A stretch of DNA of 57,055 bases from Peptococcaceae bacterium. Its GTDB lineage: Bacteria > Bacillota > UBA994. The DNA lies in NCBI GenBank assembly GCA_018334055.1, contig JAGXSS010000004.1, positions 1 through 57,055 of the forward strand, read 5' to 3'. The translations under genes and the position numbers were made by a program. Within the stretch, counting starts at the first letter, position 1, and the number at the start of each line of letters is the position of its first letter. Under the pieces are notes generated by a model, which saw nothing but the letters and a program-made list of their open reading frames with translations, did not search any database and was not told where the DNA came from. Positions 11,409-56,930 of the stretch are shown here, piece after piece.

Positions 11409-11438
11409 GGAGGGCTTAACTGCCGCGTTCGGGATGGG
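11409..11438 (-). pseudogene. 5S rRNA fragment
   Basis: Thirty bases match the most conserved part of the intact 5S gene at 56812-56930 with one mismatch (core GGCTTAACTGCCG and GTTCGGGATGGG). Sequence on both sides no longer matches 5S apart from weak traces. It cannot be a functional 5S gene. A palindromic repeat lies just to its left, as at the intact locus, so this looks like the ghost of an rRNA operon end. Confidence 0.7.
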
Positions 11439-11460: not shown

Positions 11461-11745
11461 CTACACTCCCGCCTGAGAACCAGGTGGTCTACCTGAATCT
11501 TTAGAGTGTAACATATTTAGTGCCCGCCCTATCAGCAATGCGCTTAGACCCAGTAGCATCACCTCTAGTTCGTTTTCATAAATAGTGAGCCATTGCGGGA
11601 TCCCTCTTGTCATGTATAGCACCGTTGGAATCATCACTACTAGAACGTGATAGTGAAGCTCATTTTTGTAAAGAACATACACTGAGAACATCCCGGTGAG
11701 CATTGCGACTACTAGACCTGTTCCAAAAGATATTTCTGTGGTCAT
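11461..11745 (-). CDS. small membrane protein, partner of Cys-rich protein (copy 1, 3'-truncated)
   Basis: 94 residues with three predicted membrane helices (about 9-26, 32-50, 60-79). It is homologous to the 102-residue protein at 12772-13080 through the conserved core LYKN/R...GIPQW...GRA, but lacks that protein's fourth helix and ends in an unrelated polar tail (KDSGRPPGS), where sequence runs into the 5S-fragment region. Its ATG overlaps the stop of the upstream Cys-rich gene (ATGA). A self-immunity or export-helper role is a guess from coupling and size; no family was recognised. Confidence 0.65.
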   Translation of the reverse strand: MTTEISFGTGLVVAMLTGMFSVYVLYKNELHYHVLVVMIPTVLYMTRGIPQWLTIYENELEVMLLGLSALLIGRALNMLHSKDSGRPPGSQAGV

Positions 11746-12551
11746 ATGGCATCAGGATTCCTAGAAAACTCCGTGAGGCAATCGTTAAAAAAGACCCATC
11801 TTGCACAATATGAACGCCCTGGGGTCCAGCAAGATGCCCAGGCTGCTGCAAAACATGCTAGAAGAGCTTCTGCTACTATATTCGGTGGCACGAACTTTAA
11901 TTTCGTCACCAAATACCCACAAAGCGCGTTCCGCCAAGTATAGCACCAATTATCTAAATCGCCCGGCACATACACTCTTTCCATGCACACCCAGCACCCT
12001 GGCGATACAGTGTGGGTTTCGCCCACCGGAGGCATGGGCATAATCTCTTGCGGGGGAAGGCTAAGGTTCGGCATCGGCTCTGCTGTTCTTATGGCTACCG
12101 TGAGTTGCGAGAATAAATCTCTTTGGTAAAGCACATGTCTGTCGCCTACAATCCGGCTGCTAACGATTGCCGCTACAACGGTATTATTTTGCACTACGAA
12201 AGTAGCAAGATCTAGGTAGACAAAGGAGACTCCATCATCATTGTGGTTTGCCGGCAGCACCTCAAACGACACCACCGACGTACCGTCAGCCAAGGTGGCC
12301 ACGGAAAACTGGGCATTAGGCAGTACTCGGCTTTGAAGCGCTTGAAACACTGATGATGCAACTACATGCCCAATTGCTTCATTATTTTCGGCGACCAAGA
12401 GCAACTGAAGCTGTGTAGCGGAAACGACATTTTCTGAACAACCATTGCAGGCAGCTTCGGCAGAGTAGCTCTGCTGCGCATCAGGCGAAGCAACGACAAG
12501 CGTTACCGTCAGGCTAAACGCCAAGAAAACCACAAGAACTTTCTTAATCAA
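11742..12551 (-). CDS. secreted Cys-rich protein, halocin C8-like architecture (copy 1)
   Basis: About 269 residues. A Sec-type signal sequence (residues 4-24) precedes ACNGC, a soluble domain of about 130 residues without Cys, a Pro/Met-rich linker (PMPNLSLPP), and a C-terminal domain from PGCWVCMERVYVPG with eight Cys and a hydrophobic centre. A long precursor ending in a compact Cys-rich hydrophobic domain starting GCxxC resembles halocin C8-type peptide bacteriocins. TTG at 12551 is preferred (GGGTGG 5 bases upstream) to a GTG three codons earlier. It is paralogous to the gene at 13077-13862: N-terminus nearly identical, C-terminus diverged. Confidence 0.7.
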   Translation of the reverse strand: MIKKVLVVFLAFSLTVTLVVASPDAQQSYSAEAACNGCSENVVSATQLQLLLVAENNEAIGHVVASSVFQALQSRVLPNAQFSVATLADGTSVVSFEVLPANHNDDGVSFVYLDLATFVVQNNTVVAAIVSSRIVGDRHVLYQRDLFSQLTVAIRTAEPMPNLSLPPQEIMPMPPVGETHTVSPGCWVCMERVYVPGDLDNWCYTWRNALCGYLVTKLKFVPPNIVAEALLACFAAAWASCWTPGRSYCARWVFFNDCLTEFSRNPDAI

Positions 12552-12659
12552 GTCCACCACCCTTTCTTCTTAACCCTTGCTCTGAAATTCTCCAAACGGT
12601 GAGGCAACGTTTTAGTTGTTCATTGCAATAGCATTATCTCCCTCTCGATACGAAGAAGA

Positions 12660-12762
12660 TCTAAGGGGATCGCCTAAAGGAACGGGAAGAACCGTCCCCT
12701 GCGTCATGCGTCAAGGAACGGAGGGCGGACGAAGGAACGAAAGGAGCCGTCCCCTGTCCACA
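12660..12762. repeat. short direct repeats with GAACCGTCCCCTG-type ends
   Basis: Two related units, AAGGAACGGGAAGAACCGTC and AAGGAACGAAAGGAGCCGTC, each followed by CCCTG, separated by about 45 bases. Read on the other strand they give GGGGACGGTTCTTCC-like motifs, a kind of intergenic repeat often seen in Clostridia. They fill the gap between the two Cys-rich gene pairs and may mark the duplication junction. Confidence 0.55.
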
Positions 12763-12771
12763 AGTACCACC

Positions 12772-13080
12772 TTAACGTAGGTAATGAACAGACACCCGCC
12801 AAACAAAAAAGGCAAGAAGCGCGATACCGCCGATTAATCGTGAATATTTAGGGTAGTATATATGTATTGCCCGCCCGAGCAGGGGTGCGTGGAGAAGAAT
12901 TAGCATGTTCCTCACTTCGCCCGTATAATTAGCGAACCATTGCGGGATTCCTCCTGTGATGTATGGCACGGTTAAAATCAGCACTACCAAGGTGTGAAAT
13001 TGAAAATCCCTTTTATACAAAAGATACCCTGCCAATGCAGCAGATACTGCAATACTCAAAATATACGTCCAGAAGTTCAT
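12772..13080 (-). CDS. small membrane protein, partner of Cys-rich protein (copy 2)
   Basis: 102 residues with four predicted membrane helices (about 5-22, 29-46, 57-72, 82-97). It is the intact paralogue of the 94-residue protein at 11461-11745 (shared core LLYK, LVV, GIPQWF, GRA). Its ATG overlaps the stop of the Cys-rich gene upstream, so synthesis is coupled one-to-one. An immunity protein or membrane accessory for the secreted partner would fit, but function is not shown by any motif. Confidence 0.65.
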   Translation of the reverse strand: MNFWTYILSIAVSAALAGYLLYKRDFQFHTLVVLILTVPYITGGIPQWFANYTGEVRNMLILLHAPLLGRAIHIYYPKYSRLIGGIALLAFFVWRVSVHYLR

Positions 13081-13862
13081 AGGGCATCAGGAGTAACAGT
13101 AAATTCCGTCAGGCAATTGTATGACCAAACCCATGCGTTACAAAATGAGTACCCTGGAATCCAGCAAGCTACTTGAACTGCGGCAATGCATACTAGCCAT
13201 GCCGGCCATAATAACCATCCGGGTTTTGAACACGCCAATGTAGCAAAATACCGGCAGTTTTCATCCATTCTGCCCGGCACATACACTCTTTCCATGCACA
13301 CCCAGCATCCTGGCGATACAGTATAGGTTTCGCCCACCGGAGGCATGGGCATCATCTCTTCGGGAGGAAGGCTAAGGTTCGGCATCGGCTCTGCTGTTCT
13401 TATGGCTACCGTGAGTTGCGAGAATAAATCTCTTTGGTAAAACACATGTCTGTCGCCTACAACCCGGCTGCTGACGATTGCCGCTACAACGGTATTATTT
13501 TGCACTACGAAAGTAGCAAGATCTAGGTAGACAAAGGAGACTCCATCATCATTGTGGTTTGCCGGCAGCACCTCAAACGATACCACCGACGTACCATCAG
13601 CCAAGGTGGTAACGGAGAACTGGGCATTAGGCAGCACTCGGCCTTGAAGCGCTTGAAACACGGACGATATAACTACATGCCCAATTGCTTCATTATTTTC
13701 GGCGGCCAAGAGCAACTGAAGCTGTGTAGCGGAAACGACATTTTCTGAACAACCAATGCAAGCAGCTCCCGCAGAGTAGCTCTGCTGCACATCAGGAGAA
13801 ACAACGATGAGCGTTACCGTCAGACTGAGCACCAAGAAAACCGCAAGAATTTTCTTAATCAA
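13077..13862 (-). CDS. secreted Cys-rich protein, halocin C8-like architecture (copy 2)
   Basis: About 261 residues, with signal sequence, ACIGC motif, Cys-free domain, Pro-rich linker and an eight-Cys C-terminal domain beginning PGCWVCMERVYVPG. Over the first 200 residues it differs from copy 1 at only a few positions. After VPG it diverges sharply and is shorter by seven residues, yet all eight Cys align and both end in a PDA-hydrophobic residue motif. TTG at 13862 is preferred over GTG at 13871 for Shine-Dalgarno spacing. The upstream 100 bases are also duplicated, so both copies probably share the same regulation. Confidence 0.7.
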   Translation of the reverse strand: MIKKILAVFLVLSLTVTLIVVSPDVQQSYSAGAACIGCSENVVSATQLQLLLAAENNEAIGHVVISSVFQALQGRVLPNAQFSVTTLADGTSVVSFEVLPANHNDDGVSFVYLDLATFVVQNNTVVAAIVSSRVVGDRHVFYQRDLFSQLTVAIRTAEPMPNLSLPPEEMMPMPPVGETYTVSPGCWVCMERVYVPGRMDENCRYFATLACSKPGWLLWPAWLVCIAAVQVACWIPGYSFCNAWVWSYNCLTEFTVTPDAL

Positions 13863-14110
13863 GTCTACCACCCTTTCTTTTTAAAACTTGCTCTGAAATT
13901 CTCCAAACGGTGAGGCCACGTTTTAGTTAGTTCATTACAATAGCATTATCTCCCCCCCCTTCAATATGACGACGATCTAAGGTGATGATTCTACTGCAAT
14001 AACTCCGAATCTGCCGCAACATATCATTAAATAACCAAGCAACAGCGCCTACAGAGCCTTCTTAGTGGGAATAGGCCCTGAATTTGCTAAAAACGATACT
14101 CTAATAGTTT

Positions 14111-14184
14111 GTCGTTACGACCGAAATCGTGGTTTTTCGTAGCGACGGTGTATTACACCGTCATCCTTGGCGGCGGACTGAGCG
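14111..14184. repeat. compound palindromic repeat
   Basis: Two stacked hairpins: GTCGTTACGA with TCGTAGCGAC (14111-14145, one G-U pair), then the perfect GACGGTGTA/TACACCGTC (14144-14162), followed by GGCGGCGGACTGAG. The core is an inverted-orientation relative of the units beside the rRNA operon (GTTGCTACGAAAACC there, GGTTTTTCGTAGCGAC here). The rest of the 13863-14276 gap holds only the duplicated upstream region of the Cys-rich gene and sequence I cannot assign. Confidence 0.6.
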
Positions 14185-14276
14185 TAATAAGAATGAAGAA
14201 GGTAAAACTTACTTATTGTGGTGGAATCAAGGTGATGTATTACCGCTAACCCGTGATGGCCTAGTGTTAAATGAAC

Positions 14277-15341
14277 TCAAGTCAGCGATTTTACTGCGCC
14301 CATCACGCCCTGTATTAAAAAATAAGCCGCTAGAAGAAGCATCACCACTTGGCTAGCACGCGCAAAGACCGGTGTCTTGAGGGCCTTCTGTATGGACTCA
14401 GAATCAAGCCCCGCATGCAAAGCCGCTATCATGATCACCATGGGCAAGGCAAAGGCGAGGTTATAGAGAACTAAATTGCTGACTAACTCATGCGGTTGAT
14501 GGGTCGCTAAAAAGAGCACCATAGGCAGATAAACTTGCCCCGTACAAACGAACTCGAAACCGGAGCAAAGAACCCCGAGAAAAAATACCCCAAGATAACC
14601 CATGCCCGGGCGACGCACATCACGAATACGCTTGCCGAGACTCATTTTAAGTTTATTAAGCCAGATGCTCGGCGGGAATACCCCTAAATACAGCAAAACC
14701 ACGCCATAGAGAAAGTAGATGACTGTCCTTAAGGGGTGCATGCCTCTTAAGGGGGCTAACACATGGCCTAATCCTATGCCGATGAAAAAATAGGTGGCTA
14801 CAACCCCGAGCACAAAGGTTAAGCCAATGCCTAATATATGTTTACGCCCGACCATTAAGCACATGGAAAGTAGAATAAGGAGAACGTTTAGGGTGCAAGG
14901 GTTTACCCCATCCACTAGACCCGCAGTCAAAACCCCCGCAAAACGCAAATTGGCGTGCGGCACACTTTGCGCTGCAGAGCCAAACAGGGCCTTTACTTCG
15001 ACCAAAGTAGACGCTTCAATCACCTGCCTATCTCTGAAAAAAAGGGAGAATGAGCTACCTGCCCATTCCACCGGTAAGTCTCTGCTACGCAATAGTCTAA
15101 ACATGAGGCGCACATTTTCAAAAGAACTTAAATCAAGCACTATTAACTCTACGCCTCGCTCTTCGCACAGGCGGCGGATAACTGGCATTAGTTCTTCACA
15201 TTTTGTGCAGCCGGGGGAGGTAAAGTAGAGCACGCTATCGCCAAATGGCCACGTCTCGGGGGCAGCACTATGCCCTGTGCTCGCGAAAAAACTTGCGGCT
15301 AATAGCGCCAGCATAATAACGGTTAGCCCTACATGCCGCAA
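14277..15341 (-). CDS. thioredoxin-CcdA fusion membrane protein
   Basis: 354 residues. A signal segment is followed by a thioredoxin-like domain (residues 35-125) with the redox pair Cys45/Cys48 in SPGCTKCEE, then a CcdA/DsbD-type domain with about six helices containing VNPCTL (near 150) and FVCTGQVYLP (near 275), each carrying the conserved membrane Cys. Such proteins pass electrons from cytoplasmic thioredoxin to extracytoplasmic thiols. TTG at 15341 and ATG at 15314 are both possible starts; neither has a strong ribosome site. Its position directly upstream of secreted Cys-rich proteins suggests, but does not prove, a role in their disulfide chemistry. Confidence 0.8.
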   Translation of the reverse strand: MRHVGLTVIMLALLAASFFASTGHSAAPETWPFGDSVLYFTSPGCTKCEELMPVIRRLCEERGVELIVLDLSSFENVRLMFRLLRSRDLPVEWAGSSFSLFFRDRQVIEASTLVEVKALFGSAAQSVPHANLRFAGVLTAGLVDGVNPCTLNVLLILLSMCLMVGRKHILGIGLTFVLGVVATYFFIGIGLGHVLAPLRGMHPLRTVIYFLYGVVLLYLGVFPPSIWLNKLKMSLGKRIRDVRRPGMGYLGVFFLGVLCSGFEFVCTGQVYLPMVLFLATHQPHELVSNLVLYNLAFALPMVIMIAALHAGLDSESIQKALKTPVFARASQVVMLLLAAYFLIQGVMGAVKSLT

Positions 15342-56811: not shown

Positions 56812-56930
56812 GTTCCGGCGGCGTCCTACTCTCCCGGGGACTTGCGTCCCAAGTACCATCAGCGCTGGAGGGCTTAACTGCCGTGTTCGGGATGGGAACG
56901 GGTGTGACCCCTCCGCTATAGCCACCGGAA
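56812..56930 (-). rRNA. rrf: 5S ribosomal RNA
   Basis: About 119 bases whose reverse complement starts TTCCGGTGGC and ends GCCGCCGGAA, giving the terminal helix, with the universal internal segments CCCGAACACGGCAGTTAAGC and GGTACTTGGGACGCA-type 3' part. Follows the 23S end by about 57 bases. Confidence 0.95.

Follow-up and report, generated by a model that had tools for sequence, protein, structure and literature searches.

Tandem genes for eight-cysteine precursors and coupled membrane proteins in a Peptococcaceae bacterium as putative bacteriocin–immunity cassettes

What might two tandem gene pairs, each encoding a secreted cysteine-rich precursor and a small membrane protein, do for a member of the Peptococcaceae? 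The pairs lie in a stretch of 57,055 nucleotides (contig JAGXSS010000004.1 of assembly GCA_018334055.1), hereafter the window, and an earlier note on this DNA had likened them to precursors of the halocin C8 type. In this study, the locus was compared with its relatives in the genus and with a sample of 398 genomes of the phylum. Its features are as follows.

14277..15341, minus strand: Trx-CcdA gene, encoding an exported thioredoxin-like domain (SPGCTKC) fused to a CcdA-type membrane domain; putative thiol-disulfide helper and first gene of the cassette.
13979..14237: insertion of 241 bp between CcdA and precursor A, with a 9-bp direct repeat AAGGTGATG at its flanks; absent in the sister species.
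13077..13871, minus strand: precursor A, 264 aa, built of a signal peptide, a prodomain and, at the C-terminus, the eight-Cys domain.
13101..13310, minus strand: the part of precursor A that holds the eight cysteines (GCWVC...CLTEF), a putative mature peptide delimited by alignment A6 and by divergence from copy B.
12772..13080, minus strand: partner A, 102 aa, a membrane protein of 3-4 helices, ATGA-coupled; putative immunity protein.
11742..12560, minus strand: precursor B, 272 aa, the second of the tandem copies; its N part is almost that of precursor A, whereas its Cys domain has diverged.
11766..11999, minus strand: eight-Cys domain of precursor B, delimited by alignment.
11461..11745, minus strand: partner B, 94 aa, ATGA-coupled like partner A but with about 3 helices and a shorter C-terminus.
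11409..11438, minus strand: 5S rRNA-like fragment of 30 bp immediately downstream of partner B, with 96.7% identity to the true 5S gene (56813-56929).

The earlier note had described two tandem minus-strand pairs of Sec-type precursors and coupled membrane proteins of 3-4 helices, with a thioredoxin-CcdA gene nearby, and this description is borne out, its coordinates for the pairs proving exact. Both precursors have a strongly hydrophobic signal segment at the N-terminus, as judged from hydropathy, and their eight C-terminal cysteines align one to one. The genes of each pair are translationally coupled, the start codon of the partner sharing 4 bp with the stop of the precursor (ATGA), and each partner shows three to four hydrophobic segments. 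The Trx-CcdA gene lies just upstream of both pairs, and the order on the minus strand is Trx-CcdA, precursor A, partner A, precursor B, partner B. Because the CcdA–precursor–partner order is kept in the sister species and the dN/dS of the N region is about 0.3, we regard the pairs as real genes. Judged from the spacing to AAAGGGTGG, translation of the precursors may begin at a TTG (13862 in A, 12551 in B) instead of the GTG. The insertion separating Trx-CcdA from precursor A has ends that resemble imperfect inverted repeats and is perhaps a MITE. Partner B lacks the fourth helix, and its gene ends beside the 5S rRNA-like fragment; this fragment is degenerate, and the sister species has one too.

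The two copies differ in a strikingly modular manner. Over precursor residues 1-200, copies A and B are identical at 182 of 200 positions (91%), whereas the last 64 aligned residues share only 25 (39%) and the two partners are 40% identical. At the DNA level the conserved part gives way abruptly to the diverged part, just after GCWVCMERVYVPG. A similar gradient is seen between copy B and its orthologue in the sister species, with a dN of 0.043 and a dS of 0.13 for the N part, and a dN of 0.170 and a dS of 0.26 for the Cys part; the neighbouring pyrB gives a dN of 0.013 in the same comparison. The orthologous partners of the two species have a dN/dS of 2.0, a value resting on very few changes. 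The unit of peptide and partner therefore changes much faster than the carrier part of the precursor.

The earlier note had proposed a search for the gene pair across genomes, and this search returned the pair in the sister species (G002), precursor remnants with partner ORFs in a second relative of the genus (G001), and a related operon in a more distant genome (G369). G002 has a single pair at the matching place, between pyrB and Trx-CcdA. No intact precursor is present in G001, which holds remnants at two loci: contig C11 carries, in this order, the decayed tail of a CcdA gene, the truncated beginning of a precursor, the leftover C-terminus of a precursor and one partner ORF, and on contig C25 a leftover precursor C-terminus accompanies an array of three partner ORFs. 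All four partner ORFs look intact (88-103 aa). Three of them stand directly behind a leftover precursor tail with the four-base ATGA/GTGA overlap retained, while the third of the C25 ORFs no longer has such a tail before it. This arrangement resembles an orphan-immunity array, such as arise in a similar manner in type VI secretion systems (PMC5361080), and the outlasting of precursors by partners is the behaviour expected of immunity genes (compare PMC5361080). An ABC exporter and a radical SAM gene near the G001 remnants were considered as cassette parts and rejected, since the exporter has no counterpart in G002 or in the window's own genome (G000) at E <= 1e-30; neither is thus essential. 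As a separate observation, two G001 loci (L009 7178-8782 and L010 4632-6236) carry an HTH-TPR regulator of 432 aa divergent from a 97-aa secreted peptide, and both adjoin radical SAM and ABC exporter genes, possibly as a peptide-pheromone-controlled RiPP system; a related regulator in G000 (contig C27, L067 1498-2847, minus strand) stands beside an apparent ABC exporter gene.

Beyond the genus, relatives were found in another class of the phylum. A profile of three full precursors matched a secreted 107-aa protein of G369 with an E of 0.0017, a single-genome value that is not significant alone across 398 genomes. This protein has a signal segment and an eight-Cys framework equal to that of the window, and its domain scored 26.2 on the window profile, where the best of 2999 Cys-preserving shuffles reached 16.6. 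Its gene is the first of a tight minus-strand operon; a membrane-anchored WCLYC thioredoxin-like protein is encoded next, after a gap of 13 bp, and then a 118-aa membrane protein, which matched PF13630 weakly (E 0.24). Used as a query within its class, the G369 peptide retrieved a full precursor of G519 (E 1.2e-9) and a paralogous fragment in G369 itself. This fragment (L048 4729-5040) is 57% identical to the first and has a disrupted C-terminus near transposase-like ORFs. The G519 precursor consists of signal, prodomain and eight-Cys domain, and its prodomain aligns with that of the window at 7.9 bits against 4.8 for the best Cys-preserving shuffle (n=2280; Gumbel p ~1e-6). Because G519 was not picked for its likeness to the window, this comparison is a fair test; its Cys domain alone matched the window profile more weakly (p ~0.001). 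In alignment A6, which comprises five sequences, three being close relatives, none of the eight cysteines varies.

No partner or thioredoxin gene adjoins the G519 precursor. The nearest candidate, a clear SdpI-family protein about 1.7 kb downstream, is the third gene of a sigma-factor operon that follows an apparent stem-loop, and since the precursor thus stands alone, their association is weak. The family is rare: eight-Cys proteins occur in 2 of the 154 genomes of the G369/G519 class, and in the window genus plus two other genera among the samples searched. Weak matches in G285, G036, G194, G195, G124, G340, G009 and G283, and likewise in G170, G215, G456, G477, G520, G473 and G427, were set aside, as none of those inspected was a secreted protein with eight cysteines and the rest were too short, weak or interrupted.

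In Pfam, NCBIfam, PHROG and PDB, nothing passed the cut-off for precursors or partners, and no profile in these libraries connects any part of the cassette with a bacteriocin or immunity family already known. The Trx-CcdA protein matched thioredoxin/MauD profiles, weakly. No phage, plasmid or PDB relatives were found, the sole plasmid match having an E of 5, and pattern scans of genome contigs (P0002, P0015) returned no relatives. AlphaFold modelling with two sequences gave four helices of low confidence for partner A (mean pLDDT 56) and an unusable model for precursor A (mean pLDDT 34).

The reading we favour, with moderate confidence, is that each pair is a bacteriocin–immunity cassette made of a secreted eight-Cys peptide and a coupled membrane immunity protein, served by a thioredoxin helper. 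The tails and the membrane proteins diverge fast and persist in relatives like toxin–immunity pairs, so that the locus probably represents a bacteriocin family yet to be described, with a putative activity, rather than a halocin. A signal peptide by hydropathy and a Cys-rich domain by alignment A6, the latter predicted to be cleaved off, agree with the functional class of Sec-exported disulfide bacteriocins that have a separate immunity protein. The partner is a candidate for peptide-specific immunity, as it is coupled to the precursor, co-diverges with the peptide and occurs as orphan copies; its protective role is putative.

The course of events that we infer runs from export to immunity. 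Sec would export the precursor, in which a prodomain (approximately residues 36-187) would carry a C-terminal domain of about 70-78 residues, whose eight conserved cysteines would pair into four disulfides. CcdA proteins normally carry reducing power outwards, so the helper is more likely to correct wrong disulfides than to make new ones; its exported thioredoxin domain would reduce or reshuffle them. A protease would then free the C-terminal peptide from the prodomain, and the released peptide may act on the envelope of close relatives while the coupled small membrane protein shields the producer. Copies A and B would differ in peptide–immunity specificity while sharing almost the same signal and prodomain.

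A broader proposal, to which we give even chances, is that the locus belongs to a rare undescribed family of Sec-exported, prodomain-borne eight-Cys bacteriocins with coupled membrane immunity proteins and usually an exported thioredoxin; this family would occur in two or more classes of one phylum and would diversify as cassettes are swapped, leaving arrays of orphan immunity genes behind. If this is true, it adds a family of secreted antimicrobial peptides that is missing from the profile libraries tried, one that brings its own disulfide helper and comes in natural variants, each peptide matched to a single immunity protein. Material for working out which immunity protein answers to which peptide would then be at hand in the two tandem copies, the allele of the sister species and the array of orphan partners.

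The most serious alternative, which we nevertheless consider unlikely, is that the eight-Cys domain, instead of being a toxin, is an exported redox or metal-handling protein that works with Trx-CcdA and has the membrane protein as anchor or receptor, the divergence between copies then reflecting relaxed constraint after duplication. Thioredoxin-type genes do adjoin the Cys protein both in the window genus and in G369, and the signal segment is closely followed by a further CxxC, which reads ACNGCSE in copy B and in G002 and SCIGCTE in G001, as might suit such a function. However, the copies show a recombination-like break where the constant N part meets the variable C part and partner, and partner ORFs are retained behind precursor remnants, neither of which is expected of a redox pair. 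Moreover, the window precursors matched no redox or metal-protein profile, and a second Trx-CcdA paralogue, located in a phosphonate operon elsewhere in the genomes of G000 and G002, stands without a precursor.

Coupling and co-divergence would also be compatible with a signalling or surface peptide that is secreted and paired with a membrane receptor, the two having diversified through switches of specificity like those of quorum-sensing pherotypes, and HTH-TPR regulators do occur near the G001 remnant loci. This explanation appears distinctly improbable, as the partner is a tiny protein of 3-4 helices without a signalling domain, arrays of receptors behind dead ligand genes are not expected, and no HTH-TPR regulator stands beside the window cassette.

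A bacteriocin–immunity cassette can be compared with several known systems. Polymorphic effector–immunity arrays of type VI (PMC5361080) and type VII secretion systems (PMC9484751) likewise combine a constant N part with a variable C part and leave orphan immunity genes behind displaced effectors. In contrast to these arrays, the effector here would be a small secreted disulfide peptide, and no contact-dependent machinery was seen.

In the SdpC/SdpI system, a Sec-exported precursor yields a peptide and a multi-helix membrane protein gives immunity, a plan that the Sec-type precursors and multi-helix membrane partners of the window share. However, the window partners are smaller than SdpI, and neither the SdpC profile nor PF13630 matched the window proteins; SdpI-type immunity was rejected for the partners on this ground.

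Operons of the pediocin PA-1 type also join a disulfide peptide to a separate immunity protein and a dedicated thiol-disulfide helper, PedC, encoded beside the bacteriocin (PMC4919988), which is a precedent for the helper proposed here. Whereas pediocin PA-1 has a short leader and an ABC exporter, the window precursors have a Sec-type signal, a large prodomain and four possible disulfides, the cassette has no ABC exporter, and the immunity candidate lies in the membrane. The hallmarks of pediocin-like class II bacteriocins, namely a double-glycine leader, a YGNGV-type motif and an ABC exporter with peptidase, were not found with the window precursors.

Halocin C8 is made from an exported precursor, ProC8, that comprises HalI and the 76-aa HalC8, a hydrophobic Cys-rich C-terminal domain (PMC11509114). 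The bacteriocin-like combination of precursor, membrane partner and Trx-CcdA in the earlier note gains from the comparative evidence, but the relation to halocin C8 does not survive. TIGR04449 matched neither window precursor even at E = 10, although three halocin precursors used as positive controls scored 46-49 bits (cut-off 24). The profile–profile check of the Cys domain and of the whole precursor by hhalign returned probabilities of 0.1-0.2%, and halocin domains scored no better on both window profiles than Cys-preserving shuffles, the lone exception being a marginal p of 0.04 among twelve tests. Membership was rejected on these three grounds. Halocin C8 also has about ten cysteines in another spacing and a Tat-type signal, as against eight cysteines and a Sec-type signal here, and the window cassette is set apart by its separate membrane partner and thioredoxin helper. 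With no detectable sequence homology, the likeness is one of architectural plan only: a signal, an N domain of 150-200 aa and a hydrophobic Cys-rich C-terminal domain. In a halocin C8-type system, one precursor would be the source of a peptide antibiotic and, through its N-terminal part, of an immunity protein; the near constancy of the N part beside differing C parts argues against a specific immunity role for it and favours the separate membrane partner as the immunity factor. Even with a hydrophobic ORF of 68 aa behind the halocin genes of Halobacterium and Haloferax larsenii, a system of this type is very improbable here. That ORF (L025 3304-3510 and L026 3299-3505) is conserved after the halocin C8-like genes on plasmids of Halobacterium salinarum and Haloferax larsenii, and may be an unrecognised partner.
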